From Actinernus sp. WN-2022 (taxonomy: Eukaryota; Cnidaria; Anthozoa; Actiniaria; Actinernidae), in NCBI GenBank assembly GCA_030867875.1, contig JAOWCC010000320.1:1-64000 (forward strand): a stretch of DNA of 64,000 nt, written 5' to 3'. The translations under genes and the position numbers were made by a program. Each line of letters begins with the position of its first letter. Within the stretch, counting starts at the first letter, position 1. Below, in pieces: positions 1,892 through 41,747 of this stretch. Below the pieces are notes generated by a model. The model searched no databases. It was not told the origin of the DNA and saw only the letters and a program-made list of their open reading frames with translations.

Positions 1892-1901
1892 CGGCAAAAC
1901 G
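1892..1901. repeat. Left 10-bp target-site duplication
   Basis: CGGCAAAACG lies directly outside the left end of the 18.4-kb element. The identical 10-mer in the same orientation lies directly outside the right end. Confidence 0.8.
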
Positions 1902-1940
1902 GTAGGTACTTCACATAAGATAATTATTATGTACTTATAT

Positions 1941-4900
1941 TAGTTTCAACCCAGTTCCACCTTTCAACCCTGTTCAACCTCGTTCAACCTCGTTCCGTCC
2001 TTTTCAACCTCGTTCAACTCCGTTCAGCCTTGTTCAACCTCGTTCAACTCCGTTCAACATCGTTCAACTCCGTTCAACATCGTTCAACCTCGTTCAACCT
2101 CGTTCAACCTCGTTCAACCTCGTTCAGTCCTGTTCAACCTCGTTCAACTCCGTTCAACATCGTTCAACTCCGTTCGACATCGTTCAACCTCGTTCAACCC
2201 CGTTTAACCTCGTTCTACCCTGTTCATCCTCGTTTAACTCCGTTCAACCCAGTTCATCCTCGTTTAACTCCGTTCAACCCAGTTCATCCCCGTTCAACCC
2301 AGTTCATCCTCGTTCTACCCTGTTCATCTTCGTTCAACCCCGTTTAACCTCGTTCTATACCCTGTTCATCCTCGTTTAACTCCGTTCAACTCCGTTCAAC
2401 CCAGTTCATCCCCGTTCAACCCAGTTCATCCCCGTTCAACCCAGTTCATCCCCGTTCAACCCAGTTCATCCCCGTTCAACCCAGTTCATCCTCGTTCTAC
2501 CCTGTTCAACCCTGTTCAACCTTGTTCAACTCCGTTCAACCCCGTTCATCCCTGTTCAACTCCGTTCAACCCTGTTCATCCTCGTTCAACCCAGTTCATC
2601 CCCGTTCATCTCCGTTCAACCCAGTTCATCCTCGTTCTACCCTGTTCATCCTCGTTCAACCCTGTTCAACCTCGTTCAACCCTGTTCAACCCAGTTCATC
2701 CCCGTTCAACCCAGTTCATCCCCGTTCAACCCAGTTCATCCCCGTTCAACCCAGTTTATCCTCGTTCTACCCTGTTCAACATCGTTCAACCCAGTTCATC
2801 CCCGTTCAACCCAGTTCATCCTCGTTCTACCCTGTTCAACATCGTTCAACCCTGTTCAACCTTGTTCAACTCCGTTCAACCCCGTTCATCCCTGTTCAAC
2901 CTCGTTCAACTTCGTTCAACTCCGTTCAACCCTGTTCATCCTCGTTCAACTCCGTTCAACCCTGTTCAACTCCGTTCAACCGTGTTCAACTCCGTTCAAC
3001 CGTGTTCATCCTCGTTCTACCCTGTTCAACCTCGTTCGACCCCGTTCAACCCCGTTTAACCCCGTTCAACCTCGTTCTACCCTGTTCAACCTCGTTCAAC
3101 CCAGTTCATCCTCGTTAAACCCAGTTCATCCCCGTTCAACCCATTTCATCCTCGTTCTCGTACCCTGTTCAACATCGTTCAACCATGTTCAACCTTGTTC
3201 AACTCCGTTAAACCCCGTTCATCCCTGTTCAACCCGGTTCATCCTCGTTCAACCCTGTTCAACTCCGTTCAACCCTGTTCAACTCCGTTCAACCCTGTTC
3301 ATCCTCGTTCTACCCCGTTTAACCTCGTTCTACCCTGTTCATCCTCGTTTAACTCCGTTCAACCCAGTTCATCCTCGTTTAACTCCGTTCAACCCAGTTC
3401 ATCCCCGTTCAACCCAGTTCATCCTCGTTCTACCCTGTTCATCTTCGTTCAACCCCGTTTAACCTCGTTCTACCCTGTTCATCCTCGTTCAACCCAGTTC
3501 ATCCCCGTTCAACCCAGTTCATCCCCGTTCAACCCAGTTCATCCCCGTTCAACCCAGTTCATCCTCGTTCTACCCTGTTCAACATCGTTCAACCCTGTAC
3601 AACCCTGTTCAACCTTGTTCAACTCCGTTCAACCCCGTTCATCCCTGTTCAACTCCGTTCAACCCTGTTCATCCTCGTTCAACCCAGTTCATCCCCGTTC
3701 ATCTCCGTTCAACCCAGTTCATCCTCGTTCTACCCTGTTCATCCTCGTTCAACCCTGTTCAACCTCGTTCAACCCCGTCAGTCAACCCAGTTCATCCCCG
3801 TTCAACCCAGTTCATCCCCGTTCAACCCAGTTCATCCCCGTTCAACCCAGTTCATCCCCGTTCAACCCAGTTTATCCTCGTTCATCTCCGTTCAACCCAG
3901 TTCATCCTCGTTCTACCCTGTTCATCCTCGTTCAACCCTGTTCAACCTCGTTCAACCCTGTTCAACCCAGTTCATCCCCGTTCAACCCAGTTCATACCCG
4001 TTCAACCCAGTTCATCCCCGTTCAACCCAGTTCATCCCCGTTCAACCCAGTTTATCCTCGTTCTACCCTGTTCAACATCGTTCAACCTTGTACAACCCTG
4101 TTCAACCTTGTTCAACTCCGTTCAACCCCGTTCATCCCTGTTCAACTCCGTTCAACCCTGTTCAACTCCGTTCAACCCCGTTCATCCCTGTTCAACCTCG
4201 TTCAACTCCGTTCAACCCTGTTCATCCTCGTTCAACTCCGTTCAACCCAGTTCATCCCCGTTCAACCCTGTTCAACTCCGTTCAACCCTGTTCAACCCTG
4301 TTCAACTCCGTTCAACCCTGTTCATCCTCGTTCTACCCTGTTCAACCTCGTTCGATCCCGTTCAACCCTGTTCAACCTCGTTCAACCCCGTTTAACCCCG
4401 TTCAACCTCGTTCAACCCTGTTCAACCTCGTTCAACCCTGTTCATCCTCGTTAAACCGGTTCATCCTCGTTAAACCCAGTTCATCCCCGTTCAACCCAGT
4501 TCATCCTCGTTCTATCCTGTTCAACATCGTTCAACCATGTTCAACCTTGTTCAACTCCGTTAAACCCCGTTCATCCCTGTTCAACCCGGTTCATCCTCGT
4601 TCAACCCTGTTCAACTCCGTTCAACCCTGTTCATCCTCGTTCTACCCTGTTCAACCTCGTTCGACCCCGTTCAACCTCGTTCGACCCAGTTCATCCTCGT
4701 TCTACCCTGTTCAACCTCGTTCAACTCCGTTCAACCCTGTTCAACTCCGTTCAACATCGTTCATCCCTGTTCAACATCGTTCATCCCTGTTCAACCTCGT
4801 TCAACTCCGTTCAATCTCGTTCAACCCTGTTCATCCCCGTTCAATCCAGTTCATCCTCGTTCAACCCTGTTCAACCTCGTTCAACCCTGTTCATCCTCGT

Positions 4901-7660
4901 TCAACCCAGTTCATCCTCGTTCTACCCTGTTCATCCTCTTTCAACCCCGTTTAACCTCGTTCTACCCTGTTCATCCTCGTTCAACCCAGTTCATCCCCGT
5001 TCAACCCAGTTCATCCCCATTCAACCCAGTTCATCCCCGTTCAACAAAGTTCATCCTCGTTCTACCCTGTTCAACATCGTTCAACCCTGTACAACCCTGT
5101 TCAACCTTGTTCAACTCCGTTCAACCCCGTTCATCCCTGTTCAACTCCGTTCAACCCTGTTCATCCTCGTTCAACCCAGTTCATCCCCGTTCATCTCCGT
5201 TCAACCCAGTTCATCCTCGTTCTACCCTGTTCATCCTCGTTCAACCCTGTTCAACCTCGTTCAACCCTGTTCAACCCAGTTCATCCCCGTTCAACCCAGT
5301 TCATCCCCGTTCAACCCTGTTCATCCTCGTTCAACTCCGTTCAACTCCGTTCAACCCAGTTCATCCCCGTTCAACCCAGTTCATCCTCGTTCTACCCAGT
5401 TCATCCCCGTTCAACCCAGTTCATCCTCGTTCTACCCTGTTCAACATCGTTCAACCCTGTTCAACTCCGTTCAACCCAGTTCATCCCCGTTCTACCCTGT
5501 TCAACATCGTTCAACCCTGTTCAACTCCGTTCAACCCCGTTCATCCCTGTTCATCCTCGTTCAACTCCGTTCAACTCCGTTCAACCCAGTTCATCCCCGT
5601 TCAACCCCGTTCAACTCCGTTCAACTCCGTTCAACCCAGTTCGTCCCTGTTCATCCCCGTTCAACCCATTTCATCCTCGTTAAACCCTGTTCAACCTCGT
5701 CAACTCCGTTCAACCCTGTTCATCGTCGTTCAACTCCGTTCAACTCCGTTCAACCCTGTTCATCCCCGTTCAACCCAGTTCATCCTCGCTCGACCCCGTT
5801 CAACCTCGTTCTACCCTGTTCAACCTCGTTCAAACCCGTTCAACCTCGTTCAACCTCGTTCAACCTCGTTCAACTCCGTTCAACCTCGTTTAATCCCGTT
5901 CAACCCTGTTCAACTCCGTTCAATCCCGTTCAACCCTATTCAACCCCGTTCAACCTCGTTCAACCCCGTTCAACCCCGTTCAACCTTGTTCAACCCCGTT
6001 CAACCCCGTTCTACCCTGTTCAACCTCGTTCAATCCTGTTCAACCTCGTTCTACCCAGTTCATCCTCGTTAAACCCCGTTCAACCTCGTTCAACCCCGTT
6101 CAATCCCGTTCAACCCCGTTCATCCTCGTCCTACCCTGTTCAACCTCGTTCAACCCCGTTCAACCCCGTTCATCCTCGTCCTACCCTGTTCAACCTCGTT
6201 CAACCTCGTTCAACCCCGTTCAACCCCGTTCAAAACTGTTCAACCCCGTTCTACCCTGTTCAACCTCGTTCGACCCCGTTCAACCTCGTTCGACCCAGTT
6301 CATCCTCGTTATACCCTGTTCAACCTCGTTCTACCCTGTTCAACCTCGTTCAACTCCGTTCAACCCTGTTCAACTCCGTTCAACATCGTTCATCCCTGTT
6401 CAACATCGTTCATCCCTGTTCAACCTCGTTCAACTCCGTTCAACCTCGTTCAACCCTGTTCATCCCCGTTCAATCCAGTTCATCCTCGTTCAGCCCTGTT
6501 CAACCTCGTTCAACCCTGTTCAACCCTGTTCATCCTCGTTCAACCCTGTTCATCCTCGTTCAACCCATGCAGTTTATCCTCGTTCTACCCTGTTCAACAT
6601 CGTTCAACCCAGTTCATCCTCGTTCTACCCCGTTTAACCTCGTTCTACCCTGTTCATCCTCGTTCAACTCCGTTCAACTCCGTTCAACCCAGTTCATCCC
6701 CGTTCAACCCAGTTCATCCTCGTTCTACCCTGTTCAACCTCGTTCAACCCAGTTCATCCCCGTTCAACCCAGTTCATCCTCGTTCTACCCTGTTCAACAT
6801 CGTTCAACCCTGTTCAACTCCGTTCAACCCAGTTCATCCCCGTTCTACCCTGTTCAACATCGTTCAACCCTGTTCAACTCCGTTCAACCCCGTTCATCCC
6901 TGTTCATCCTCGTTCAACTCCGTTCAACTCCGTTCAACCCAGTTCATCCCCGTTCAACCCTGTTCAACTCCGTTCAACTCCGTTCAACTCCGTTCAACCC
7001 AGTTCGTCCCCGTTCATCCCCGTTCAACCCAGTTCATCCTCGTTAAACCCTGTTCAACCTCGTCAACTCCGTTCAACCCTGTTCATCATCGTTCAACTCC
7101 GTTCAACCCTGTTCATCCCCGTTCAACCCAGTTCATCCTCGTTCGACCCCGTTCAACCTCGTTCTACCCCGTTCAACCTCGTTCAACCCCGTTCAACCTC
7201 GTTCAACCTCGTTCAACCTCGTTCAACTCCGTTCAACCTCGTTTAATCCCGTTCAACCCTGTTCAACTCCGTTCAATCCCGTTCAACCCTATTCAACCCC
7301 GTTCAACCTCGTTCAACCCCTTCAACCCCGTTCAACCCCGTTCAACCCCGTTCAACCCCGTTCAACCCCGTTCAACCTTGTTCAACCCCGTTCAACCCCG
7401 TTCTACCCTGTTCAACCTCGTTCAATCCTGTTCAACCTCGTTCTACCCAGTTCATCCTCGTTAAACCCCGTTCAACCTCGTTCAACCTCGTTCAACCCCG
7501 TTCAACCCCGTTCATCCTCGTCCTACCCTGTTCAACCTCGTTCAACCTCGTTCAACCCCGTTCAACCCCGTTCATCCTCGTCCTTCCCTGTTCAACCTCG
7601 TTTAACCTCGTTCAACCCTGTTTAACCCGTTCACATTCATTTAACCTGGTTCACCCTCAT
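1941..7660 (+). repeat. 10-bp minisatellite array, left arm
   Basis: A tandem array of GTTCAACCYN-type decamers. Variants include GTTCAACTCC, GTTCATCCTC, GTTCAACCCA, GTTCTACCCT, GTTCAACATC, GTTCGACCCC and GTTTAACCTC. The GTTC core is the most constant part. Phase slips are rare, and the inner end decays from about 7,620 to 7,880. The unit has no stop codon and 10 is not a multiple of 3, so all three plus-strand frames read the same 10-residue peptide (FNPVQPRST type). The resulting frames of up to about 420 codons are a by-product of the repeat. The C-rich strand is on plus. Confidence 0.97.
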
Positions 7661-10035
7661 TCACCACATGATAGTTCCATTGTGTTCAACCCGGTTTAAC
7701 CTCGTTCAAACTCGTTCAACACCGTCGGCATGGTTAAACCTCATTCAAACCAGTTAAACCCCGTCAAGAGAATTTTTTTTATTGACCCCTTAAATCGCGT
7801 TCAACCGCGTTCGGCCGAGTCCCCGTTCATCCACATTCACCATAGTTCAATCTCGTTCAACAGCGTTCTCCGATCGATCCCTCCGACCGTTAATCGACTC
7901 TGAAACTGACCCGTTAATCCCGTGCATTCCGTTTAACTACGGTCGAAAGTAGCTCCGATCAAAATGTGAGAACTAAGGTTTATTACTTCGAAATATGAAA
8001 CGTGAATTACTATTTTTGCCAATTATTTGTCATCATCATTTCGACAAGCGCACAACGTTTATATTTTTAATCAACTCCTATCATGGATATATTTTCTACT
8101 GTTTTCAACGTTTCTACTGATTAAATTCATGTATATTAGAGTATAACCTGCATATTATTAAGAAATAAAAAAATAAAAATACCTACGACCAGTTATACAA
8201 GTACCTCAAATTCCAGCAACTTCAACTTCATTTATAAACAAAACTAATGGTGAGAGAGAAACTACGACACATCATTTACACACAGATCTCAGTGTCTGTT
8301 GTGCAAACTCATGATTAACAAAAAAGGAATTCGAAATAGCAGGGATTTCATTTAACAGATATTGAAATCACAGATAAAAGATTGATCAAAATAGCAGCGA
8401 TGTACATATTTTGCTAATATTGTAGAGATTTGGTTAACTTCAGCACAGTTATGATCTGTTGAACGTATATTCAGGAATATAACTTTTAATTCGTTTAAAA
8501 AAAATTATGTTTATATCTTCAGAGATCTGACCGAAAGGGGGAGAACTTTCCACATTCCCATCCTGGAAAAATATTTTCTCTGTTTCTCTGTTTTGGAAAA
8601 CTGCACCTCTTTTGATGAGGATTGAGTTGTATATTTGTGAACTTCATTTATTTATTAAATAGATTTAATATATTTTTAGTGTATTTAAGTTTGAAACATC
8701 ATGCATCATTTTGCAGAAATTTTCAACGTATAGTAGCGAGAAAGGTAAGGTACCTAACGGTATAAAAATAGGAACTGCATGTTCTATTGGTTTAATTACT
8801 GAAGTAGTTCAACCGAAGTGCCCGTTTTTGACTGAAGTATAAGGAGTTTATGCACGGGTGAGTATGTTTTCGCAGCTTGACCCCAAGGACATATAAGGAG
8901 AGGATAACTATTTAAAAGACTGTGTCGAGGTATGTAGTCTTAATTATAACTTGGCAAGGATTCCTACTGTGGAAAATAACTATTTCCTCTAAAAGAGGTA
9001 GAGATTGTAGGTGATTGTTGCAGTTTTAAGTCGTATGAAGATTCCTCAAGCATGTTAAGGCATGGTTTATGAGCAATTCTGATAAAACATTCAAAATTCA
9101 TTATCTTTGTTATTTATGTATGAAATACCCTACTGATAACTTTGGAATAAGACGGTAATCGTGTCTTAACATTTAAGGATTGGTATTTTGGTTTTTTGAA
9201 GGTCACGTGACCTTAAGGTTGATAAAACAAGAAATCAAAATTGGGTGGCGGAAGTTATTGTTTTGTTTCAGATTTTCGCTTCGAAATGTTAAGTTTGTTA
9301 TGGGAAATGCCCGGAATGGTTGACTTTTTATCACTGAAGCCGGAGAATATAAATGGCGAAAAATGGTTCCAACAATAGGTCACGTCACCTGTTTTCTATA
9401 TTTTCGCCTTAACAGTCTATCAGGGTCAACCCACAATTGTAATCAGATAAACACAAAATCGTTACTTAAAATATACAATATACCCACCCCGTTTTTAGTT
9501 TAATTATATTCATTTTGAAATCATTGGTGTTTCCTGCAATTTGATTGGTTAAAAGCAGCAGTGATTTCAGCCTAAATTGCATCATTTTGTGTCTGTTATT
9601 GCATCCTTTTGCTGAACCAATCAAAAAGCAGAATTTAAAAAGCCATTTCACAGCGTAGGGATTGCGTGATCGCTCGCGCACGCTCTTAGATTCAAAGCTC
9701 TAGCTACCCTCTTGACTTTTCTAGTTTGTTGTTGTAAAAAAACAAATTTACGAGCATTCAGAGCTGATGTGGCCGTGATAATATAAAAGGAACGATAAAG
9801 AAATCTAGCTAACCTCATTGATTATGTAAATTACAAGTTTTTGATTGAAAGACTATTGCATTATAAGATATTGGAATGATACTAACTAAATAGTTGAAAG
9901 ACTAACTAATTGACTAATAACTTAATTAGATGAACAAGCGAGTAGTTGTGAAAATGGACAGGCGGATGTCTAATGTATAAGTAAACACTTGGACGAGTAA
10001 ACATGAATAAGTTAGGCATGCATAAATAAAACATA
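7661..10035. other. Inner spacer of giant element
   Basis: The first 220 bp are decayed decamers. The rest is AT-rich with no recognisable gene. AAGGTCACGTGACCTT at 9,199-9,214 is a perfect palindrome. From about 9,850 to 10,035 short ACTAACTAA-like repeats lie where the 3' tail of the minus-strand LINE would end. Confidence 0.5.
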
Positions 10036-12195
10036 TTAGTGGTATGAGAACTTATCAGTGTTGATCCTGACATTTGGTTGCAGTGGTATGGAGTTAATAT
10101 ACTTTTTGACAAGTTTTTTAAAGGTCGAGTGTTTTTTGTCTTTAAGGAGATCGTCTAGGTAGTTCCACAGTACGGATGCTCTGTATGTGATTGACTTGCG
10201 TATAGCATCTGTACGTGGATGTGGGATGACTAGCCTATGAACGCCTCTTAGAGAGTGTGTATTGTTTCTTAGTGTGAAGAGTTTATTTGGGAGTTTCTCT
10301 GAGTTGAGCGATTTGTGAACAAACGTTGCTAGCTTATATTTGTAATTCCAGAACAGCGGATTCCAGTGTGCCTTGTTGATGACGTCTGTACTGGGAGTGG
10401 TCCAGTCACATCTGTGGATGATCTTGGCAGCTCGAACATGCATCCTCTCAAGATCTTGAAAGAGGGTCGTGTTGCAACTGCCCCACATAATCAGTCCATA
10501 GGTGATGGAAGGCAGGATCACTTTAAAGTAAAATATCTCAAGACTACTCAATGGAAGAAACCGTAGTGCTTTAAGTAGATTAAGTTTCTTGGCAAATGAT
10601 TTTATTGTCTCTTGAAGATGCGTGGTCCAGTTCAGCTTATTATCTATGTTAATTCCGAGGCATCTAGTTGAGTTGACTATCTTGATGTTATTGTTGTTAA
10701 TTGTTAATGCTGGAATGGGGCCTACGAATCGCTTTCTTGATATAAGCATTGCTTCACATTTTTTAGGGTGTAATGTCATGGCATTGTTGATGCACCATTT
10801 TGCTATAAGTCCTAATGCTCTGTTGGTTTCTTTAACAGCAGACTCGACATCATTGGCAATGCAGAATAGGGTGGTGTCATCTGCATACATCTCAATGTAT
10901 GCATTTTCAATTTGGGCAATAGTGTCTGGTAGATCATTCGTATACAAACTGAAGAGAATAGGGCCTAGGACAGACCATTGTGGTACTCCACATGTGACAT
11001 TGGCGGATTGGGATGTACCTTCACCAACTGTAGCAAACTGGACCCTTTCAGTTATGTAATCAGACAGCCATTCCCATAGATCGCCCATAATTCCAAAACT
11101 CTGCAACTTATATGGTAAAATGGTGTGGGAGACTGAGTCAAATGCTTTACGAAATCAATGAATACCGCACACACGACTTTTTGATGGTCCAGAGCAGAAC
11201 GCCATTTCTCAGTCATATGTGCAAGCAGAAGTTCAGTTGAGTGCCCTTCCCTGTATGCCCATTGATGTGGACTGAGAAGATTATGGTTCTGCACTGTGTG
11301 TTCTATAATCTTATATCTGAGACACAACGTTCCATAATTTTGCTTGGGATGGAGAGTATGGAGAGGGGACGGTAATTCTCTCTCTCGGTGATATCGCCTT
11401 TTTTGTGGGTTGTCCTTAGGCGAGCACATTTCCAAGTCGCTGGGACCTTGGTCTCCACCAAACTATGGTTATAAATCTCAGTCATTGGGGGTGTAATCGA
11501 AGCTCCAGCTAGTTTTAGGAGTCTTGGTGAGATTCCATCTGGTCCAGTGGCCTTGTGGGCGTTTAGTGTTTCAATGTGTTTCCGCACCGTTTCCTGAGTG
11601 ATCGTTAGTGATTCCAAGGTTGGTGTAACTCTTGTTTGTAGTGATTGGAGAGGGATAGTCGATGGCGGGAGGCTTAGAGCCTGTTTTTCTCCAATTGTAG
11701 CAAAATACTGATTCAAGAGCTCTGCTTTTTCTGTATCGTTGGTAGCCAAAGTCCCGTCGTCTCTTCTTATTGCCGGAGGAGGAGGATCATTACAAGGGTG
11801 TGCAGCTTTGTTTATTAACTTCCAGAAGGTCTTGCAGTCTCGAACCTTTTCAAATTGATCAGCATAATAGTTTGCTTTGGCTTGTCTTAGTTCATATGTT
11901 ACTTCGTTTCTAATGGTCTTGTATCTCTGTCTTATGTTATCATCATTTGATCTTTTCGATTCATTTAGTAATTTGTAACGCAGATTCATCTTATGCCTGA
12001 GTTTTCCAGTAATCCATGGTAGTGACTGGCTTCTAACTTTAATTTGACGCGGAGGGACATTATCATCGCAAATTTGAGTGAACAGCGTTGTCCACGTCCA
12101 GTACGCATCGTCTGCATTGTCGAACGCCTGACAGACAGACCATGGAGCGTTTTGCAGATCCTTCTGGAAATGGTCTATATTTAGTATTTTGCAAC
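10036..12195 (-). pseudogene. Non-LTR retrotransposon reverse transcriptase, broken
   Basis: Minus-strand remains of a LINE ORF2-like polyprotein of the Jockey/CR1/L2 type. In order: a linker region (12,195-11,500); RT fingers with HKATGPDGISPRLLKLAG and RENYRPLSIL (11,560-11,340); the GVPQ-VLGPILFSLYTNDLP block; the catalytic YADDTTLF (about 10,880); then thumb and C-terminal region to the stop at 10,036. Frameshifts near 11,310 and 11,150, the second inside the conserved F-D-KAFD block, split it into three frames. The usual GVPQGS is GVPQWS. No endonuclease domain is present: 5' of about 12,195 the sequence switches to an unrelated palindromic repeat. It is a 5'-truncated, inactive copy inside the giant element. 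The RT assignment is firm; the clade is tentative. Confidence 0.92.
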
Positions 12196-12910
12196 ATTGT
12201 TGGATGCAACATGTTGGATCCGTTTGAACACCCTGTTGGACGATGTTGGATGATGTTGGACAATGTTGCATGAAGTTCGAAACTAGTCAAACTTTTCATC
12301 CAACATCGTCCAACATTTCTTTTGTTATCGTGATCGATGAAGCATGTCCCAACATGTTGCATCCGTTTGAACGGCTTTCCCAACAATGTTGGACTCGCGC
12401 ACGCGCACTTCATTCGTCATTCGCGCTGTATCCATGGATATTTGATTTCGTTTACTACTTTCAGAAGATTTTGAGCAGGAAAACAGGAGCAAAACTCCTA
12501 CAAATGGAAAAAGGGAGGCGGTAAACACAGGGAAAGAAAAGTGCAAGACCAGACTGAAAGTGGTCAGACGCCGAAGTTGACGAACTGCTAGATCTGTTAG
12601 AAGATGGGACGTTTCAAGCAAAGATTATCACCTCGGGAACAAGAATGAAAGGGCCTACGAGAAAATGGAAGAATTAAGACTAGATATAACTATAACAGAC
12701 ATAAAAGCCAAAGTAACAGGCTTACGAGCGACGAAGGCGGACTTAAACAGCACCGGAATCCTTTGCGATATCACAGTATTATCCAACATGTTATCCAACA
12801 TGTTGGATTGATGTTGGATCCGTTTGAACACCCCCATCCAACATCGTGCAACATCGTGCAACCATGTTGGATCCAAAATGTTGGACGATGTTGCATCCGT
12901 TTGAACAGAC
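12195..12910. repeat. ATGTTGGATCC / TCCAACAT motif clusters
   Basis: Two clusters (12,195-12,390 and 12,775-12,910) of a motif combining palindromic CCAACATGTTGG with GGATCCGTTTGAAC, in both orientations. Examples are AACATGTTGGATCCGTTTGA near 12,210 and TGTTGGATCCGTTTGAAC near 12,815. The 380 bp between them has no recognised gene. This looks like the subterminal repeats of a non-autonomous transposon. Exact ends are unclear. Confidence 0.6.
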
Positions 12911-13581
12911 CTTAATAATATACCATATTGTATATTGTATTGACGGCGGTTAGCACTGATACCTTGATCAACTTTGTTTATTATACCTGTGTTTATCTTC
13001 CCCGTCGACGCAGATTCACAAGGTTCAAGGTTTTTATTTCCACAAAAACAAAACAATCATTACATTTAGGACATGCGACAAAATATATTTACTAATGTGG
13101 AGGAGCACAAGCATAAAACCACGAGGGTTACCAAAGTTGCTTTTGCCCCTGGAATACTTATTTAAATTAATCTATATATAAGACAAATAAAATATGATAT
13201 ATAAAAAGTGATTGTAGATAGTGCACTAGATCTAGTATGAGAGTTTGTGTAAACTAGACTGAAACAGAAATAAATGTATTTAAAAAAAATAAGATTAAAG
13301 TAACAGAGTTTAGGTTAAGTATTATATCTACGAGAAAGAGCAAAAATAGTAAATAGCACAAACGATAGTTTTTACAGAAACTAGTCGCCCACTGTATGTT
13401 TTCTCCTTACTCCATGTTTTATTTTTGTTTTTAAATGTTTGAACAAACTGGTGGACTTTAATTTTAATCAGTTTTACACACACCAGTGAAATTCATATTT
13501 ACAATACCAGAAACAAGTCAAACTTACATTTTCCAACTTAGGCTAAACGGGCAAATTGGGCATGCAAACAAAAACTTACAT
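12911..13581. other. AT-rich spacer, no gene
   Basis: No coding frame or RNA gene was recognised. It is low-complexity AT-rich DNA between the motif clusters and the next TIR element. Confidence 0.5.
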
Positions 13582-14061
13582 GACTAGGTGTGGCGAATTG
13601 CGAGACTTGCGTTTGCGTTTTCAAAATCCGAGCCCGAGACTTTAAAGCAATTTGAAATTCCGAGCCCGAGACTTTGAGATACGAGCTTGTTCGTTATAAA
13701 AATCGAAGCCCGAGTTATGATGAAACACCCAGTATCTTTCATCACGCCAGGTGAGGAATTATTAATAATAATAATAGTAAATATACCAGGAATTCACCAT
13801 TTAACCAATTAACTGTCGTTCGCGTACCTTGTAAAATACATGCAGAGGCCGCCAAGAAACCGTAACTCCAATAAAAGCTAATAAAAGAGTAAAAAGGCGT
13901 AACTCTGAGACCGTCTCCAAAAAAAAATCAGAGACTCCGAGATGGGAAAAGTAAAGAAAAATCGAGACTCAGAGACTGTACCTATAAAATGCGAGATTTC
14001 GAGACTTACCGACTTTTTGCGAGACCCTCCGCTTTTCTTGACACGATTCGCCACCCCTAGG
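13582..14061. mobile_element. Small TIR element, possibly hAT-like
   Basis: The left end CTAGGTGTGGCGAATTGCG pairs imperfectly with the right end CGATTCGCCACCCCTAG. Inside, short 'cgagcccgagactt' and 'gagactccgag' phrases repeat. The terminal sequence resembles (C/T)AGGGGTGGC ends seen in some hAT elements, but no clear 8-bp duplication was found. It is non-coding. Confidence 0.55.
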
Positions 14062-14875
14062 ACTTTTAAAGTAATAATTTAGATATCGATGTAGATGCTC
14101 GGTCTGTAACAACCAAATTTGTAAATATAATATGTTAATTTACATTTTAAAAAACTGTCTGTAAAAAAACTGTATGTACTTCAATATCACTATTCAAACT
14201 CAAACTCAATTTATGTAATTAATTAATTAATTAATTAGTAATGGGCTCCTGTCGTTTCATTAAAAACAATAACAATAACAACAATAATAATAATAATGTC
14301 TTTAATGAATCACCGATAAAATACATATCGTGTGTTAAGCTATAAGTAATAAAGCATAAATATACAACTCTCATAATATAACAAACGTGTAAATAAAAGT
14401 ATGTGGGAACAAAGACTATTAAATAGCTTGGGTAAGGGTGCGTTTACCAATTTCGTCGCTAAGCAGCGACGTTGCTATGAAGAGTCGGCGCGCGCGCACT
14501 CATGCAAACGGCGGGGGAAAACGTACTTCCGGTTTAGTGAAAAAGCAATAAAGTGATAAAGCCGAAAGCCGAGAAAAGCTTCAGGGAAAAGAAACTTCTG
14601 CAGCGCACTCAACGGCATAATTCCCCTTTTGAGAAAGGCTTTAAAAAAGTTAAACAGGAGCTCTTGCAAATCCTCCAATTGTAGCTGGGTCTATCAAAGT
14701 TATGCAACATATCAATTAGCCTTTTCGCAAATTGTCTCTATTTCCTTGAAACGTTTGTATTTATTTCACTAGCTCCGTTTCAGTTAATTTTACTTCACTG
14801 TGTATACAAAAAAAAAATATTCCGCCGTTCCGTCGAGCCGTCGAGCCGTCAAGCAGCAAATTACACCATCCGGGA
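14062..14875. other. Spacer inside giant element
   Basis: AT-rich, with a run of about six ATTA/TTAA units near 14,215-14,237. No gene was recognised. Short frames at 14,475-14,678 (minus) show no domain. Confidence 0.5.
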
Positions 14876-17800
14876 TTAAACGAGGCTGAACGCGGTGTTG
14901 AACGGGACTGAACGGGGTTTAACGAGGACGAACAGGGTTGAATGGGGATGAACAGGGTTGAACGGGGTTGAACAGGGTTTAACGAGGATGAACCGGGTTT
15001 AACGAGGATGAACAGGTTGAACGGAGTTGAACGAGGTTGAACAGGGTAGAACGAGGTTAAACGGGGTTAAACGCGGGGTTGAACAGGGTTGAACAGGGTT
15101 GAACGATGTTGAACGGAGTCGAACGAGGTTGAACGGAGTTGAACGGAGTTGAACGAGGTTGAACAGGGTTGAACGAGGTTGAACGATGATGAACAGGGTA
15201 GAACGAGGATGAACTGGGTTGAACGATGTTGAACAGGGTAGAACGGAGTTGAACAGGGTTGAACGAGGTTGAACAGGGTTCTAGGGTTGAACGAGGTTGA
15301 ACAGGGTTGAACGGGGTTGAACGTGGTTAAACGGGGTTGAACGGAGTTGAACGGAGTTGAACGGAGTTGAACGAGGTTGAACAGGGTTGAACGATGTTGA
15401 ACAGGGTAGGGTGAAACGGAGTTGAACGAGGGTGAACAGGGTTGAACGAGGTTGAACAGGGTAGAACGATGTTGAACGGGGATGAACAGGGTTGAACGGG
15501 GTTGAACTGGGTTGAACGGGGATGAACTGGGTGGGACGGAGTTGAACGAGGATGAACAGGGTGGAACGGAGTTGAACGAGGTTGAACAGGGTTGAACAGG
15601 GTTGAACGGAGTTGAACAAGGTTGAACAGGGTTGAACGATGTTGAACAGGGTAGAACGAGGTTAAACGGGGTTAAACGGCGGGGTTGAACGAGGTTGAAC
15701 AGGGTTGAACGATGTTGAACGGAGTCGAACGAGGTTGAACAGGGCTGAACGGAGTTGAACGAGGATGAACTAGGTTGAACGATGTTGAACAGGGTAGAAC
15801 GAGGATGAACTGGGTTGAACGGGGACGAACTGGGTTGAACGGAGTTGAACAGGGTTTAACGGGGATGAACGAGGTTGAACAGGGTTGAACAGGGTTGAAC
15901 AGGGTTGAACAGGGATAAACGGGGTTGAACGGAGTTGAACAGGGTTGAACGATGTTGAACAGGGTTGAACGAGGATGAACTGGGTTGAACGGGGATGAAC
16001 TGGGTTGAACGGGGATGAACTGGGTTGAACGGGGATGAACTGGGTTGAACGGAGTTGAACGAGTATGAACTGGGTTGAACGAGGTTGAACAGGGTTGAAC
16101 GAGGATGAACAGGGTTGAACAGGGTTGAACGAGGTTGAACAGGGTTGAACGAGGATGAACTGGATTGAACGATGTTGAACAGGGATGAACGATGTTGAAC
16201 GGAGTTGAACAGGGTTGAACGGAGTTGAACGAGGTTGAACAGGGTTGAACGAGGTTGAACAGGGTAGAACGAGGTTAAACGGGGTAGAACGAGGATGAAC
16301 TGGGTTGAACGATGTTGAACAGGATAGAACGAGGATGAACTGGGTTGAACGGGGATGAACTGGGTTGAACGGGGATGAACTGGGTGGAACGGAGTTGAAC
16401 GAGGATGAACAGGGTTGAACGGAGTTGAACAAGGTTGAACATGGTTGAACGAGGTTGAACAGGGTAGAACGAGGTTGAACGGGGTTAAACGGGGTTGAAC
16501 GAGGTTGAACAGGGTTGAACGGGGTCGAACGAGGTTGAACAGGGTAGAACGAGGATGAACAGGGTTGAACGGAGTTGAACAGGGTTGAACGGAGTTGAAG
16601 GAGGATGAACAGGGTTGAACGGAGTTGAACGAAGTTGAACAGGGATGAACGGGGTTGAACGGAGTTGAACAAGGTTGAACAGGGTTGAACGATGTTGAAC
16701 AGGGTAGAACGAGGATGAACTGGGTTGAACGGGGATGAACTGGGTTGAACGATGTTGAACAGGGTAGAACGAGGATAAACTGGGTTGAACGGGGATGAAC
16801 TGGGTTGAACGGGGATGAACTGGGTTGAACGGGGATGAACTGGGTTGAACAGGGTTGAACGAGGTTCAACAGGGTTGAACGAGGATGAACAGGGTTGAAC
16901 GGGGATGAACTGGGTTGAACGGAGTTGAACGAGGATGAACTGGGTTGAACGAGGTTGAACAGGGTTGAACGAGGATGAACAGGGTTGAACAGGGTTGAAC
17001 AGGGTTGAACGAGGTTGAACAGGGTTGAACGAGGATGAACTGGATTGAACGATGTTGAACAGGGATGAACGATGTTGAACGGAGTTGAACAGGGTTGAAC
17101 GGAGTTGAACGAGGTTGAACAGGGTTGAACGAGGTTGAACAGGGTAGAACGAGGATGAACTGGATTGAACGATGTTGAACTGGGTTGAACGATGTTGAAC
17201 GGAGTTGAACAGGGTTGAACGGAGTTGAACGAGGTTGAACAGGGTTGAACGGGGATGAACTGGGTTGAACGGGGATGTACAGGGTTGAACGGAGTTGAAC
17301 GAGGTTGAACAGGGTTGAACGAGGTTGAACCGGGTTGAACGATGTTGAACAGGGTTGAACGAGGATGAACAGGGTTGAACAGGGTTGAACGAGGTTGAAC
17401 AGGGTTGAACGAGGATGAACTGGATTGAACGATGTTGAACAGGGATGAACGATGTTGAACGGAGTTGAACAGGGTTGAACGGAGTTGAACGAGGTTGAAC
17501 AGGGTTGAACGAGGTTGAACAGGGTAGAACGAGGTTAAACGGGGTAGAACGAGGATGAACTGGGTTGAACGATGTTGAACAGGATAGAACGAGGATGAAC
17601 TGGGTTGAACGGGGATGAACTGGGTTGAACGGGGATGAACTGGGTGGAACGGAGTTGAACGAGGATGAACAGGGTTGAACGGAGTTGAACAAGGTTGAAC
17701 ATGGTTGAACGAGGTTGAACAGGGTAGAACGAGGTTGAACGGGGTTAAACGGGGTTGAACGAGGTTGAACAGGGTTGAACGGGGTCGAACGAGGTTGAAC

Positions 17801-20165
17801 AGGGTTGAACGGGGTCGAACGAGGTTGAACAGGGTAGAACGAGGATGAACAGGGTTGAACGGAGTTGAACAGGGTTGAACGGAGTTGAAGGAGGATGAAC
17901 AGGGTTGAACGGAGTTGAACGAAGTTGAACAGGGATGAACGGGGTTGAACGGAGTTGAACAAGGTTGAACAGGGTTGAACGATGTTGAACAGGGTAGAAC
18001 GAGGATGAACTGGGTTGAACGGGGATGAACTGGGTTGAACGATGTTGAACAGGGTAGAACGAGGATAAACTGGGTTGAACGGGGATGAACTGGGTTGAAC
18101 GGGGATGAACTGGGTTGAACGGGGATGAACTGGGTTGAACAGGGTTGAACGAGGTTGAACCGGGTTGAACGATGTTGAACAGGGTAGAACGGGGATGTAC
18201 AGGGTTGAACGGAGTTGAACGAGGTTGAACAGGGTTGAACGAGGTTGAACCGGGTTGAACGATGTTGAACAGGGTAGAACGAGGATGAACTGGGTTGAAC
18301 AGGGATGAACTGGGTTGAACGGAGTTGAACGAGGATGAACAGGGTAGAACGAGGTTAAACGGGGTAGAACGAGGATGAACTGGGTTGAACGATGTTGAAC
18401 AGGATAGAACGAGGATGAACTGGGTTGAACGGGGATGAACTGGGTTGAACGGGGATGAACTGGGTGGAACGGAGTTGAACGAGGATGAACAGGGTTGAAC
18501 GGAGTTGAACGGAGTTGAACGGAGTTGAACGGAGTTGAACGGAGTTGAACAGGGTTGAACGAGGTTGAACAGGGTTAAACGAGGATGAACAGGGTAGAAC
18601 GAGATTAAACGAGGTTGAACAGGGTTGAACGAGGTTGAACGGGGATGAACTGGGTTGAACGGGGATGAACAGGGTTGAACGAGGTTGACGGAGTTGAACG
18701 AGGTTGGACAGGGATGAACGATGTTGAACAGGGATGAACGATGTTGAACGGAGTTGAACAGGGTTGAACGGAGTTGAACGAGGTTGAACAGGGTTGAACG
18801 AGGTTGAGCAGGGTTGAACGATGTTGAACAGGGTAGAACGAGGATGAACTGGGTTGAACGGGGATGAACTGGGTTGAACGGAGTTGAACGAGGATGAACA
18901 GGGTAGAACGAGGTTAAACGGGGTAGAACGAGGATGAACTGGGTTGAACGATGTTGAACAGGATAGAACGAGGATGAACTGGGTTGAACGGGGATGAACT
19001 GGGTTGAACGGGGATGAACTGGGTGGAACGGAGTTGAACGAGGATGAACAGGGTTGAACGGAGTTGAACGGAGTTGAACGAGGTTGAACAGGGTTGAACG
19101 AGGTTGAACAGGGTTGAACGAGGTTAAAGGAGGTTGAACAGGGTTGAACGAGGTTGAACGAGGATGAACTGGGTTGAACGGGGATGAACAGGGTTGAACG
19201 AGGTTGACGGAGTTGAACGAGGTTGAACAGGGATGAACGATGTTGAACAGGGATGAACGATGTTGAACGGAGTTGAACAGGGTTGAACGGAGTTGAACGA
19301 GGTTGAGCAGGGTTGAACGATGTTGAACAGGGTAGAACGAGGATGAACTGGGTTGAACGGGGATGAACTGGGTTGAACGGAGTTGAACGAGGATGAACAG
19401 GGTAGAACGAGGTTAAACGGGGTAGAACGAGGATGAACTGGGTTGAACGATGTTGAACAGGATAGAACGAGGATGAACTGGGTTGAACGGGGATGAACTG
19501 GGTTGAACGGGGATGAACTGGGTGGAACGGAGTTGAACGAGGATGAACAGGGTTGAACGGAGTTGAACGGAGTTGAACGAGGTTGAACAGGGTTGAACGA
19601 GGTTGAACAGGGTTGAACGAGGTTAAAGGAGGTTGAACAGGGTTGAACGAGGTTGAACGAGGATGAACTGGGTTGAACGGGGATGAACAGGGTTGAACGA
19701 GGTTGACGGAGTTGAACGAGGTTGAACAGGGATGAACGATGTTGAACAGGGATGAACGATGTTGAACGGAGTTGAACGAGGTTGAACGGAGTTGAACGAG
19801 GTTGAACAGGGTTGAACGGAGTTGAACAGGGTTGAACGGAGTTGAACGAGGTTGAACAGGGTTGAACGAGGTTGAACAGGGTTGAACGGAGTTGAACAGT
19901 GTTCAACGAGGATGAACGGGGAAGAACGGGGATGAACGGGGTTGAACGGGGTTGAACGGGGTTGAACGAGGTTGAACGGAGTTGAACGAGGCTGAACGAT
20001 GTTAAACAGGGGTGACCGGGATTGAACGAGACTGAACTGGGTTGAACGAGGCTGAACAGTCTTGAACGTGGTTGAACGCGGGGTCTGAACGAGGGGTTGA
20101 CCGGTGGAACGGTGTTGAACAGGGTTGAACGTGGTTGAATAACGAGGCTGAACGGTGTTGAAGCG
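14876..20165 (-). repeat. 10-bp minisatellite array, right arm
   Basis: The same decamer family as the left arm, inverted: the plus strand reads GTTGAACGAG, GTTGAACAGG, GATGAACTGG and so on. It has higher-order structure. The distinctive AGGATAGAAC unit recurs near 16,321, 17,581, 18,401, 18,960 and 19,459, and about 500 bp around 16,321 is repeated nearly word for word 1,260 bp later. Uninterrupted minus-strand frames of up to 730 codons encode only a FNPVQPRSTP-like decapeptide repeat and are not called as genes. Units degrade at both edges (14,876-15,000 and 19,990-20,165). Confidence 0.97.
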
Positions 20166-20263
20166 TAGTGTATAAGCGACTACCAGTACTCTCTAACAAA
20201 CAATCTTCTAAGTACATAATAATCTTCTTAGTACATAATAATTATCTTATGTGAAGTACCTAC

Positions 20264-20273
20264 CGGCAAAACG
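20264..20273. repeat. Right 10-bp target-site duplication
   Basis: CGGCAAAACG is identical to 1,892-1,901 and directly follows the right terminus GTACCTAC. Confidence 0.8.
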
Positions 20274-20881
20274 GTATGCTCCGCTGGCCAAAAGAACGAA
20301 GGCTCTGCTATCAAATACAAATTACCGAGGGTTTCAACTTTTTTAGTAAATAATTTTATAACTTAGTAAACTCACAGAGAATTACAAATTAAGAAAACCT
20401 CAACCTGTTAAAGTCTTAGGCTTAGCTTTTAAGTAGTTTTCTTATTTTTTGACAAAACAGTTCACAAATGGATGCTTTTAAGCAGAAATTCTAAAATCAC
20501 GGGTATGTGCCTGTTGTTTCATTTCAGTTTTCGCGGGAAACTGGGGGCGGCCGCGCCGACAAGAAATAGCAAATACGCATGCGCGTAACGTTTTGCCGCG
20601 ATGTGGACGTGGGGCCAACGGAGGGCCAACGTCGGCCAACGTGACCTTGTCATTCAAAGAGGCCGAGCCACGCACTTAGGAGCCTGGGCAACAATTATTT
20701 CAAGATAGCTCTTTTTCTTCAACTCGGCATGATCTTGTGTTATTTAATTGGAAAATAACTAACACACAGATTCATGATCTCGAATTTATTTTCAGAAAGG
20801 CCCAGATAGAAAGCTATACACGAAGTAGCTGTCACGGAACACGATTGTGAATATTAATTATTATATTTAAGGTATTTAGCG
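20274..20881 (+). promoter_or_regulatory. Upstream region of DUF445 gene
   Basis: A GC-richer patch (about 20,540-20,690) with three GGCCAACG-like repeats (near 20,610, 20,625 and 20,634) lies 200-340 bp before the start codon, as expected of a metazoan promoter. No TATA box was identified. Any transcription start is inference. Confidence 0.35.
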
Positions 20882-23800
20882 ATGCCCCGTAGCAATTCAA
20901 GGTATGGTACTTTCGAAGGAAGTACGGAGAGCAGTAGAACAGAATTATTCGCAATCGATGGAAGAAGCTATGAAAGAGAAACAGTGAGTGAGGTAAAGTA
21001 TTTCTAAAGTGTACCAGAGCCTAGAGGGGCAGGGAAAAGCGTTGCATGCAAATATACATATTTAATACAGCCATTATTTACATTTCACATTATTTCATAA
21101 AACTTCATTTTGATATTTATTACTTCAGAGATATTATTTTTGCGATCGAAATTTTAACTACGTGACAAAATTATACTTATATTTATATGTCAATTCCAAA
21201 CCTGCCTTATCCTCCCCCTCCCCCTGGGGCATACATTTACGTCAGGGCATTTGTCAAAGACAGTACATTTTATATCAGTGTTTGCCGCTCCCCTTGGGGG
21301 GTTGTTAATTATGCACCTATCAATGTCAACCCCCGGGGGGGGGGGGGGGGGGGAGGCCAGGCAGATGTGGGGCATTTAACTTTTTGGGAGAATTTTTGGT
21401 CAAAATCCCCACCCTGGGGACTAAATTCTGGGTCAAAACGGATCAAATCCCCCACCCTTGTATGAAATTGATTTACACAAATTCAAGAAGTATTTGGAAT
21501 GATCTATAGTAAATAGGAATGAAACGTTGAAGTATTAAATTAATTTATATTTTTAATGTGAACTGGATGGTAAACCTACCTTTTAGACGAATCCAAAATG
21601 GCCGACAAACATGAGGCACCGATATTTAGTACCAGTCCCTCTCTTCCAAAAGTCAAATGTCCCCACCCTGGGGTCCAGGCTCCTGTTCAAATTCCCCAGG
21701 GTGGGGACACCAAGAATGGTCAAATGCTCCACATCTGCCCGGCCTCCCCCCCCCCCCCTTCCCCTGGGGGTTGACATTGATAGGTGCATTAGTGGGAAAT
21801 TGAAATTTGGGTGGGGGTGTGCTGCCACCCTTTATATTTATACCCTATTTCAGACAAAAAATTATGATTTTCCATACCCTTTTTCAGACGTGACCCCGAA
21901 AATCTGTACCCATGCCAAAATCATATATCTAATCCAATGACATCTTTCACTGTGATTTGTTCTCTTTCTCAATTTATTTTGAAGATCAATGTCAAAATAA
22001 CAAGAAACTATAAAGAGAAATTATTGAAGTCAAAAATCATAGTCCCCATTCCAGACTAAAAAGGTAACATTTATAACCCTATTTCAGACTAAATCAACTC
22101 AAAAACCATACCCTTTGGGTGGCACATACCTGTATAGCTTTAGTATATGGGAGTACATGTATATATAGCTTATATACGATTGTTGCCTGCCATTACTCGG
22201 ACTAGAATTGGAGTACTATGATGTTGTAGTAGCAAAAACATGGCTACGTTAGTCTAATTTTAATATATAAAATTTTAATGGCTAAGAGCTTGTACACACG
22301 TTTGAACTTTAAAAAATGCCTTAAGTTGCTCTGTCGTATAACTGTTGCATAGATGACACCATGAAAAGACTGTTAAAGTGCCTTATATCACCCTTTTGTA
22401 ATTTTGATAGCATATGAACCTCCAAAAAGTTGTGAGTACTTCTGTGAAGAAAGTTTTGGTTTAAAGTGAATAGTGAATGTTCTACGCTTGTTTGAAATCG
22501 TGTAAATGTGACCTTTCCTGACCCATGACCGCATAAGTAAAAGCCTGGGTCAAAACCTGGGTAGATGTCATCTCATTAATGCATTATTCTCCATGGCGCC
22601 TTTTTATCACAACAACATCAATGCATAGAAAATATACAGTTTTTGAGTTGTTGGTAAAGAAAAAAGTCATTTTAGTCAACATGTTAAGTATTTCTTCAAA
22701 TGATTACAAAGCCGAATTAATTATATGACGTCAAGATGACGTCTATACAGGTATCGACCAAGGCTTTTACTTACGCAGTCATGGGTCAGGAAAGGTTACA
22801 TTTACACGATTTCAAACAAGCGTAGAACGTAAAGTATTCACTCAAAACCAAAACTTTCTTCACAGAAGTACTCAAAACTTTTTGGAGGTTCATAAGCTAT
22901 AAAAATTGGAAAAGGATTATAGGCACTTTAAACAAAGGATTGCTCATTTCTAGTAATGTTGGGCCAGTCTAGCTCAAATTTATGGCCAAACTAACCAGAC
23001 TTCCTGTAGGAATTTTGACTTTTAAAAGATTTGAAATGGTAAGTACTACCATTTGCAAGCTACCGTTAAGTGTGAACCTTTTTCCGCGTTCGTTTATGTT
23101 TGAAACTAGACGTCTGGCGTGCCAAACCTGTGCAATTTGTCGGCAAACTAATTAGTTTCAACCTTAATGTTGAAAACCTTTGATATGTCTTCTACCGTCG
23201 TGCAACTCAGATTATGCCAAGAGACAGTTATTGTCTTGCATCTCTCATAATTCTGAGCATCCAGAACTTGAACTTGAACCGACATTTATATGATTTAGGA
23301 AAATCTAGCTGAAAAGTTCCCAAACCTGAATCCCACTCGCTGAAACGTGAAGGCGAGACATGTCAAAGGTTGTCACAATCGCGGTTAAATTGCAAAGGTT
23401 TGTGCCGCCAAACGTCTAGGTTTCAAACATAAACGAACGCGGAAAAAGGTTCACGCTTAACGGTAGCTTGCAAATGGTAGTATTTGTAGTACTATTACTT
23501 TCCAAAACTGAAAAAACAAAAACAGGAAAAGTGTAATATTTGATTGCAGTAGCACTTTAAATAAAGTTTATCAATCGACTCTCTCCCATCCCAAATTCTG
23601 ATTGGTTGATTCACCTACGAATAATGGTCTGAGTATGTGCAGTCATGATAATTCAATATGTTCTGCAAATAACGATCTGAGTATAATTTATATAATTATG
23701 CACTGTTGACCACTCCATTAATTTTGGTAAACAAGGCAGCCATTGGTGACTCAAAGATCCAGTTTAGAACGTCTGTAGGTAAAGTTATATTTTGTTGAAT

Positions 23801-40237: not shown

Positions 40238-40340
40238 TAAAGGCTGGTTCTCATATAATCGTCCCGATCGCTCATTCTTTTGTTCTGCATATTAATTTAC
40301 GCTTCGATTCACACCGAACAAAAGATTATGAAAACCAGCC
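40238..40340. mobile_element. Short foldback joined to the 40.3-kb MITE
   Basis: AAGGCTGGTTCTCATATAATC pairs imperfectly with GATTATGAAAACCAGCCTT. Its right end shares TTAA with the next element, as if that element inserted at the edge. Confidence 0.55.
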
Positions 40341-40344
40341 TTAA

Positions 40345-41071
40345 AGGGATACCCGAGTGAAAAACACATTGGGGCTCAAAAGAATCTTCAACATGTTCTT
40401 TGTTCAGAAAATGTATTAAAATTTGATCAAAGGTTTTTAGTATTAAGAACGAGCACCTCAAAGTTGGCCCCACGAAGACATGGGCGCCGCCATCTTTGTT
40501 TGCATTTACGGAAGTGACGTCACTTCGTCCCACCAGCGTTCTACTCTCTCACTTATTAGGTGTTTTTAGGATGATAAATGCCTTAACTGTACCTCACATA
40601 CATTGTAGTTTTTATACTTATTCAGAAGTCACTCGAGTCTTTTAAGCCATGTTGTTTTGCTGTTATTAAATGGCAGTTACGAGACCTTGTTGTTCGTCTG
40701 ATAATTTCTCGCCTTCCCAGTGCTTTTCTTCCTCCTCCCAGTCTTCTGAACTTTTCTCATAATGTCGTCTTCATCATAATTCCGGTTTCTGTAAGAATTC
40801 CTCTGCAATCTCGATGAAAATATATCCACTTTAATTCCGAGCGTGTGAAAATCATACAAAGACAAGTAGCCGCGATACGCTGGTGGGACGAAGTGACGTC
40901 ACTTCCGTAAATGCAAACAAAGATGGCGGCGCCCATGTCTTCGCGGGGCCAACTTTGCGGTGCTCGTTCTTAATACTAAAAACCTTTGATCAAATTTTAA
41001 TACATTTTCTGAACAAAGAACATGTTGAAGATTCTTTTGAGCCCCAATGTGTTTTTCACTCGGGTATCCCT
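40345..41071. mobile_element. TTAA-flanked MITE with 200-bp arms (AGGGATACCC)
   Basis: TTAA at 40,341-40,344 and 41,072-41,075. Ends AGGGATACCCGAGTGAAAAA and its complement. The arms are nearly identical for about 200 bp, so it is probably young. Each arm holds AAGTGACGTCACTT (40,512; 40,891) and a small frame that begins MGRSDVTSVNANKDGGAHVF with one substitution between arms. The frame is an arm by-product, not a gene. Confidence 0.88.
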
Positions 41072-41747
41072 TTAAGAATCAAATCCTAAAATAATGGAAA
41101 TTAAAAATATTGCATGAGAATGAAGGTGTATTGTAAGACTGATTTGCTTCAAGACTATCTAAATGAATAAGAACACGTTTTTGACGTTGAGAATACAGTT
41201 GCCTTTTATTCACATGAAATAAATTAGATGGCACTGGTAAAATATGGCGCTAAAAAGGGCGTTTTAAAAATAACACATTCCAATACACCATGTACATTAT
41301 ATACTCTAGAGACCATTCTACCACTCTACTGACACTTACAAAAAGCTCAATTACTTACAGCAATAATTATGTCATTACTATAAGTACTTACGTTAAGTTA
41401 AACTATGTCCTTTGGCGTCCATAGGTGAATGTAGATCTCTTTACTCTTCTAGGAAATCACCACTCCCTCCCTCACATTTCACCGTAACCTTTAATGGTGA
41501 ATCATTCAATTAACATGGAGGGGCGAGCGGGTACTTTCCAAGAAACTTTAAGAGATCCGTGAGTGCTTTATACGAAATATGTCCTCTAACATCCAACGGC
41601 AAGTAATTTGCAAGTATTTTGTACAGGTTGATAAAAGACAAGTAACTTTAGAGCAGATTTCATTTTATATATAGTGTGAGAGAAATGTGGCATCGTCCTA
41701 CTATAACGCTGCGGTCCGACTGATTTGATCAGAAAGCAAAAGGAAAA

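Follow-up and report, generated by a model that had tools for sequence, protein, structure and literature searches.

A Probable Foldback Transposon of 18.4 kb With Decamer Minisatellite Arms in the Anthozoan Actinernus sp. WN-2022

Introduction

Foldback transposons carry long terminal inverted repeats (TIRs) composed mostly of tandem subrepeats, and in the FB elements of Drosophila and the TU elements of sea urchins these subrepeats are short (10-bp units in FB), forming arms shorter than those reported here. The subject of this article is an 18.4-kb locus at positions 1892–20273 of a 64,000-nucleotide stretch of Actinernus sp. WN-2022 (assembly GCA_030867875.1, contig JAOWCC010000320.1, positions 1 to 64,000 of the forward strand), and this whole stretch is called the window throughout. 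The locus is likely a non-autonomous class II (cut-and-paste) foldback transposon that was probably mobilized by the transposase of a Mutator-like element (MULE).

The closest described systems are compared here. Of 12 MULE families with long TIRs in Aedes aegypti, 10 possess short subterminal tandem repeats of 9–15 bp; Muta1, classed as a type 2 Foldback, combines a 10-bp motif at the terminus with nine copies of a 12-bp subterminal repeat and target-site duplications (TSDs) of 8–9 bp (PMC5225508). Muta1 and its relatives resemble the Actinernus unit in having a short unique terminal motif, subterminal tandem repeats within the TIR, and non-autonomous copies with foreign cores. In both, moreover, the terminal motif (GTA-GG-TAC in the 18.4-kb element) forms an imperfect palindrome whose two central bases are unpaired. 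However, Muta1 encodes its own transposase, and its TIR spans 145 bp, including nine 12-bp repeats, compared with 5.4–5.7 kb and approximately 500 decamers per arm here. Tm1, a Mutator/Foldback element of the root-knot nematodes (Meloidogyne), is associated with a Phantom-like MULE transposase and 9-bp duplications, and the bulk of its composite TIRs is likewise a variable number of short repeats that is unequal between the two ends (PMC3169594). Tm1 differs in containing only 1–9 units of ~14 bp, in its asymmetric outer motifs, and in forming a family of tens of copies.

Tetris of Drosophila virilis also lacks a transposase, creates 8–10-bp duplications, and has TIR tandem repeats that have grown into satellite arrays, though its unit is ~220 bp long and its arrays reach up to 66 copies; its authors suggest that large arrays disrupt the element (PMC4079207). 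Galileo, of the P superfamily, shares long and internally repetitive TIRs but has 7-bp duplications, TIRs of at most 1.26 kb, ~210-bp units, and a P-type transposase (PMC3573991). The tandem repeats within Galileo TIRs carry binding sites for the THAP domain of the transposase (PMC3573991; PMC3688188). Galileo also shows that foldback-like TIRs can belong to a superfamily other than MULE. The MULE-related Rehavkus elements of arthropods and annelids combine a 9-bp duplication with an internal minisatellite, but the minisatellite precedes the 3′ TIR and the TIR is 26–400 bp long (PMC6446971). No coral foldback element is named in the titles and abstract openings listed by searches of open-licence papers.

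Termini and Target-Site Duplication

The locus is very probably one real transposed unit. Its ends consist of two 34-bp termini that are identical in inverted orientation (34/34 bp), with a perfect 10-bp direct repeat just outside them, a combination far beyond chance; by our arithmetic, the duplication by itself would arise at a given boundary with a probability of ~4^-10. The unit between the duplications is 18,362 bp long and is laid out as follows.

1892–1901, + strand: left target-site duplication, CGGCAAAACG (exact motif scan of the window)
1902–1935, + strand: left unique terminus, 34 bp, inverted match to the right terminus (motif scan and alignment)
1963–7633, + strand: left arm, decamer minisatellite of ~520 units, including 522 exact 10-mers starting with GTT (Tandem Repeats Finder, TRF, and unit split)
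7634–7960, + strand: degenerate inner tail of the left array, where mismatch rises (delimited by eye)
7961–14860, no strand: core; of 67 open reading frames (ORFs), 25 were scanned and none of these has a transposase domain (Pfam)
14871–20139, − strand: right arm, the same decamer array reversed, ~480 units, including 484 exact 10-mers (TRF and unit split)
20140–20229, − strand: right subterminal stretch, with most of a 19-bp tandem duplication (20202–20249) that overlaps the terminus
20230–20263, − strand: right unique terminus, 34 bp (motif scan and alignment)
20264–20273, + strand: right target-site duplication, CGGCAAAACG (exact motif scan of the window)

This layout bears out the structure proposed in a first-pass annotation made from the sequence alone, namely one inserted unit with TIRs consisting almost wholly of minisatellite. 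The two kilobase-scale arrays of one 10-bp repeat in opposite orientation were recovered by TRF, the perfect 10-bp duplication stands at the expected places, and the unique inverted ends proved longer than claimed.

Within the window, CGGCAAAACG occurs twice on the + strand, at the two boundaries, and once on the − strand (20589–20598). The 18-mer at the tip of the terminus, GTAGGTACTTCACATAAG, is found at 1902–1919 (+) and 20246–20263 (−), and, with as many as 2 mismatches allowed over its first 18 or 33 bp, the terminus has no further copy in the window. Both ends of the duplication carry CG, so that a naive inverted match stretches to 35 bp; because of this overrun, an automatic scan for inverted pairs with duplications missed the 18.4-kb element. 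Matching flanks are obtained with the 10-bp reading of the duplication only. Extending the direct repeat by 3 bp to CGGCAAAACGGTA is possible, as the right flank by chance starts with GTA. A 12-bp duplication with one mismatch, which would place the element start at TAGGTAC, was judged by eye to be a poorer fit and was rejected. The palindromic character of GTA-GG-TAC was seen directly, with a chance expectation of ~1 in 64.

The target site itself, CGCGGCAAAACG (1890–1901), has a perfect inverted partner, CGTTTTGCCGCG (20589–20600), and the two would lie ~315 bp apart if the insertion were removed; GGCCAACG is present close to both. Given this pair, the unit may have inserted into the end of another inverted-repeat element. 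To the left of the insertion are two adjoining palindromic elements resembling miniature inverted-repeat transposable elements (MITEs), at 1266–1508 and 1507–1869, the latter with arms of ~130 bp at 92% identity and stopping 22 bp before the target duplication.

Structure and Evolution of the Decamer Arms

Both arms are built from one decamer, GTTCAACCCC, and its close variants, in opposite orientation (TRF). When the arrays are split at GTT, the left yields 547 pieces and the right 508, of which 522 and 484, respectively, have a length of exactly 10 bp. The two arms agree in their ten most frequent decamers, whose counts differ by no more than 3-fold. Counted as terminus plus array, the arms measure 5,732 bp (left) and 5,393 bp (right). 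Their observed/expected CpG ratios of 1.55 and 1.48, compared with 0.66–0.88 in the core and flanks, are high as a consequence of the decamer junction. The arms were rejected as coding DNA, since an 863-aa open frame is explained by the decamer having few stop codons. A protein search with a 192-aa frame of the left array (7047–7622) returned two matches among 270 candidates (E 1.4e-12 and 3.7e-5); the proteins, P0121 and P0122, have a 10-residue period like that of the translated decamer array, and P0121 reads FNLVQPR; this is a hint, and no more, that similar arrays with 10- or 30-bp units may be present in other genomes.

The arrays are most diverged at their ends. Measured as mean mismatches to the nearest common decamer in 500-bp bins, divergence in the left arm is 0.48 at the outer end and 1.85 at the inner end, where the bin takes in the degenerate tail. 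The right arm has 0.65 and 0.76 at the corresponding ends, and the interior bins range from 0.10 to 0.37; the last left bin, beyond the tail, reaches 7.0, as the array has already ended there. Each arm also contains internal block duplications. In the left arm the largest spans 409 bp at 95.8% identity, and the twelve largest are shifted by 0.5–2.6 kb, while the three largest of the right arm span 586, 531, and 492 bp, are shifted by 499, 1260, and 1290 bp, and have 97% identity (97.6% in the longest). Exact internal blocks extend up to 486 bp, this longest one being repeated in the right arm at a 499-bp spacing. Diverged array ends and internal block duplications are signs of unequal exchange, and they support growth of the decamer arrays through such exchange inside each arm.

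The arms also share sequence with each other. An exact block of 237 bp joins left 2664–2900 with right 17924–18160, and another of 233 bp joins left 2668–2900 with right 16634–16866; the two right-arm partners are mutual duplicates 1290 bp apart, and the exact blocks sit within matches of 331 and 372 bp at 96% identity. Expressed in units, the longest inter-arm run of identical consecutive decamers is 23, whereas shuffling of the unit order (100 runs) gave a longest shared run of 6, and the maxima in 200 runs each of order-1, order-2, and order-3 Markov nulls were 13, 15, and 18. Since the observed run exceeds all of these nulls, the block in this single copy points either to an exchange of sequence between the arms or to their recent common ancestry. 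As wholes, the arms are not copies of each other: the best ungapped right-arm match to 100-bp pieces of the left arm has a median identity of 91%, with at least 98% in only 2 of 56 pieces.

Contents of the Core

The 7-kb interior, on which the first-pass annotation was silent, is read as passenger DNA, consisting of a dead long interspersed nuclear element (LINE) and other repeat debris. Two features stand out.

10036–12286, − strand: broken reverse transcriptase of the non-long-terminal-repeat type, a passenger; RVT_1 on 10036–11154 (E 2.8e-19), with more parts in other frames
~12188–12910, no strand: second small repeat-bearing remnant, read as a passenger; it has its own decamers, TGTTGGACGA and variants, which run in both orientations, and at 12581–12808 (+) it matches MADF below threshold

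The best listed relative of the reverse transcriptase has 61% identity over 93% of the query, and the organism names among the best 120 of 1108 matches are those of anthozoans only, Oculina patagonica (2) and Paramuricea clavata (1). The remnant at 12188–12910 may be read from its decamers as another decamer-bearing element within the core.

Over 7634–14870, 67 ORFs of at least 45 aa were counted, and 25 of these were scanned against Pfam. The scanned ORFs contain no transposase domain, including the PHD-finger type of Rehavkus and the DDE type of MULEs, and RVT_1 is the sole match above the cut-off. Matches below the cut-off (MADF, E 0.0041; BT1, 0.021; 2OG-FeII_Oxy_6, 0.038; DUF2529, 0.095; She9_MDM33, 0.13) are taken as chance, although the MADF match might instead mark a Harbinger remnant. 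Across the whole window, Rfam gave no matches at the gathering threshold, and none of 1970 candidates proved homologous to a 295-aa window ORF at E 0.001.

Classification and Alternative Explanations

The unit is assigned to the foldback kind by its build: each end has a short stretch of unique sequence followed by short tandem repeats within long inverted repeats, the target duplication is in the 8–10-bp range, and the core is foreign. Its TIRs consist mostly of tandem subrepeats, and its inverted ends are bracketed by a TSD that matches at 10 of 10 bp. The length of this duplication falls within the 8–11-bp range given for MULEs in the sources consulted and speaks for a MULE and against the 7 bp of Galileo and the P superfamily. 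The locus also departs from Rehavkus, as its arrays stand at both ends and not on the 3′ side alone. The first-pass annotation had known of no named family with this build, which does not hold: foldback elements share it, and several, such as Muta1 and Tm1, are described in the cited excerpts as moved by MULE transposases. The foldback kind is therefore already known, and what stands out here is the scale and the link between transposon and minisatellite.

Several observations weigh against this reading or parts of it. The element is known from a single copy in the window, and no transposase was found in the scanned core ORFs, which leaves the length of the duplication and the build as the basis for assigning the unit to MULEs; the 42 core ORFs outside the Pfam scan either are not among the larger ones or overlap the reverse transcriptase. 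Eight of 11 inverted pairs in the window have no direct repeat of at least 7 bp within 12 bp of their BLAST edges. Single changes are as frequent in the GTTCAAC core of the decamer as elsewhere, in a test biased against positions 8–10, where changes become other common variants. Finally, older shared ancestry instead of exchange could lie behind the blocks shared between the arms. Searches for second copies covered collections of viral and prokaryotic DNA, which may omit the window's own genome, and their negative results accordingly say little: the terminus 18-mer had one chance match each in the viral and genome contig collections, with identity ending within one base of the 18 and with the rest of the terminus and the decamers absent from the 201 bases around each match, while the decamer-array pattern and the 23-base inner terminus each had 0 matches in the viral contigs.

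A transposase from outside the MULE superfamily could have moved an element of the same foldback build; Galileo, for example, is mobilized by a P-type enzyme. Independent origins of the foldback structure in different superfamilies are assumed in the literature (PMC4079207; PMC3169594), and the scanned core ORFs, which offer no transposase, are compatible with this; the explanation is nonetheless unlikely, as a 10-bp duplication fits MULEs and Tetris (both 8–10 bp in the cited excerpts) and not Galileo. The foreign-looking debris of the core raises a different possibility, that of a composite in which two foldback-like elements flank passenger DNA and move jointly by their outer ends, like the Ising transposable element of Drosophila, and the movement of long DNA between foldback transposons is documented (PMC6431247, as excerpted). 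However, neither arm has a terminus at its inner end at up to 2 mismatches, and the inner arm edges have just short common matches of 10–29 bp. Since the terminus is present at the two outer ends alone, the arms are not two complete elements, and a composite origin appears distinctly improbable. The arrays may also be assigned another role, as an anti-silencing landing platform comparable to the VANC-bound tandem motifs of VANDAL elements instead of transposase sites. In VANDAL MULEs, the regions to which VANC binds consist of tandem repeats that diverge rapidly (PMC10398659), and the arms are CpG-rich, though the decamer junction accounts for this; no such protein or gene turned up here, where no search was aimed at one, and the system is described in Arabidopsis alone in the cited excerpt, making this role highly doubtful for the present arrays.

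Two further explanations dispense with transposition of the unit as assembled. The arms might have been duplicated or misjoined by the assembler, and the exact tandem blocks of the right arm (486 bp at 499-bp spacing) do make array length hard to assemble. Yet the arms differ from each other (median 91%; 2 of 56 pieces at 98% or more), hence one arm was not copied into two, and each arm joins its own flank, leaving an artefact very improbable. Slightly less credible still is an origin without a transposon, in which repair inverted and duplicated a local minisatellite, the ends would resemble each other through common descent, and the direct repeat would be a coincidence; arrays of this kind do expand locally, but unique termini identical at 34 of 34 bp lie directly inside a perfect 10-bp duplication.

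Proposed Mechanism

For the preferred reading, a non-autonomous foldback element probably mobilized by a MULE, another copy would provide the transposase in trans. This enzyme, which the 10-bp duplication suggests was most likely of MULE type, would cut at the unique ends. It would then paste the unit into its target, copying 10 bp. By analogy with Galileo, the decamers may have begun as extra transposase-binding sites beside the ends that helped end recognition. Once in tandem, they would expand via unequal exchange within each arm, as the array structure supports, and sequence would be passed between the inverted arms or inherited by both. Constraint on the decamer core was considered and rejected, as single changes strike GTTCAAC freely, and the sequence of this copy does not support the idea that the decamers still bind anything.

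A bolder proposal, which is speculative and improbable, is that of a satellite-spreading transposon. Its self-renewing kilobase arms would be kept alike by exchange, for example through a foldback hairpin, and each jump would plant two 5-kb satellite seeds, with the arrays acting as a dock of several hundred sites, either for a transposase or for a protein that counters silencing.

Other Inverted-Repeat Elements in the Window

Judged on the window as a whole, the genome is rich in short inverted-repeat elements. Many inverted-repeat pairs of 70–460 bp are present, for instance at 58817–59765, 40340–41076 (arms at 99%), 22373–22931, and 62940–63408. A 1071-bp element at 53679–54749 has inverted repeats of ~460 bp at 95% identity, perfect 9-bp duplications (TGGTACAAT), and the ends TAGCCTGCG, and looks like a non-autonomous MULE-type element. 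It is resembled by a 1003-bp element at 56843–57845 with inverted repeats of ~266 bp at 89%, perfect 9-bp duplications (TAAAACGTT), and the ends TAGCCTGGG; the termini of both read TAGCCTG, unlike those of the 18.4-kb element. Their perfect duplications indicate that insertions with such duplications occurred in this genome, and no more. Tandem arrays at 57881–58095 and 61193–61466 differ in sequence but both have a 63-bp period.

Implications

As a single copy without a transposase, the unit is a catalogue entry and not a new principle. If it represents a real family, it would be a foldback element in a cnidarian with TIRs more than four times the length of the longest found described in the cited excerpts (Galileo, 1.26 kb), although Tetris repeat arrays can run longer. 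Such a family would also illustrate how a transposon can seed minisatellite DNA, and the blocks shared between its arms could be used to test whether gene conversion keeps inverted arms alike.

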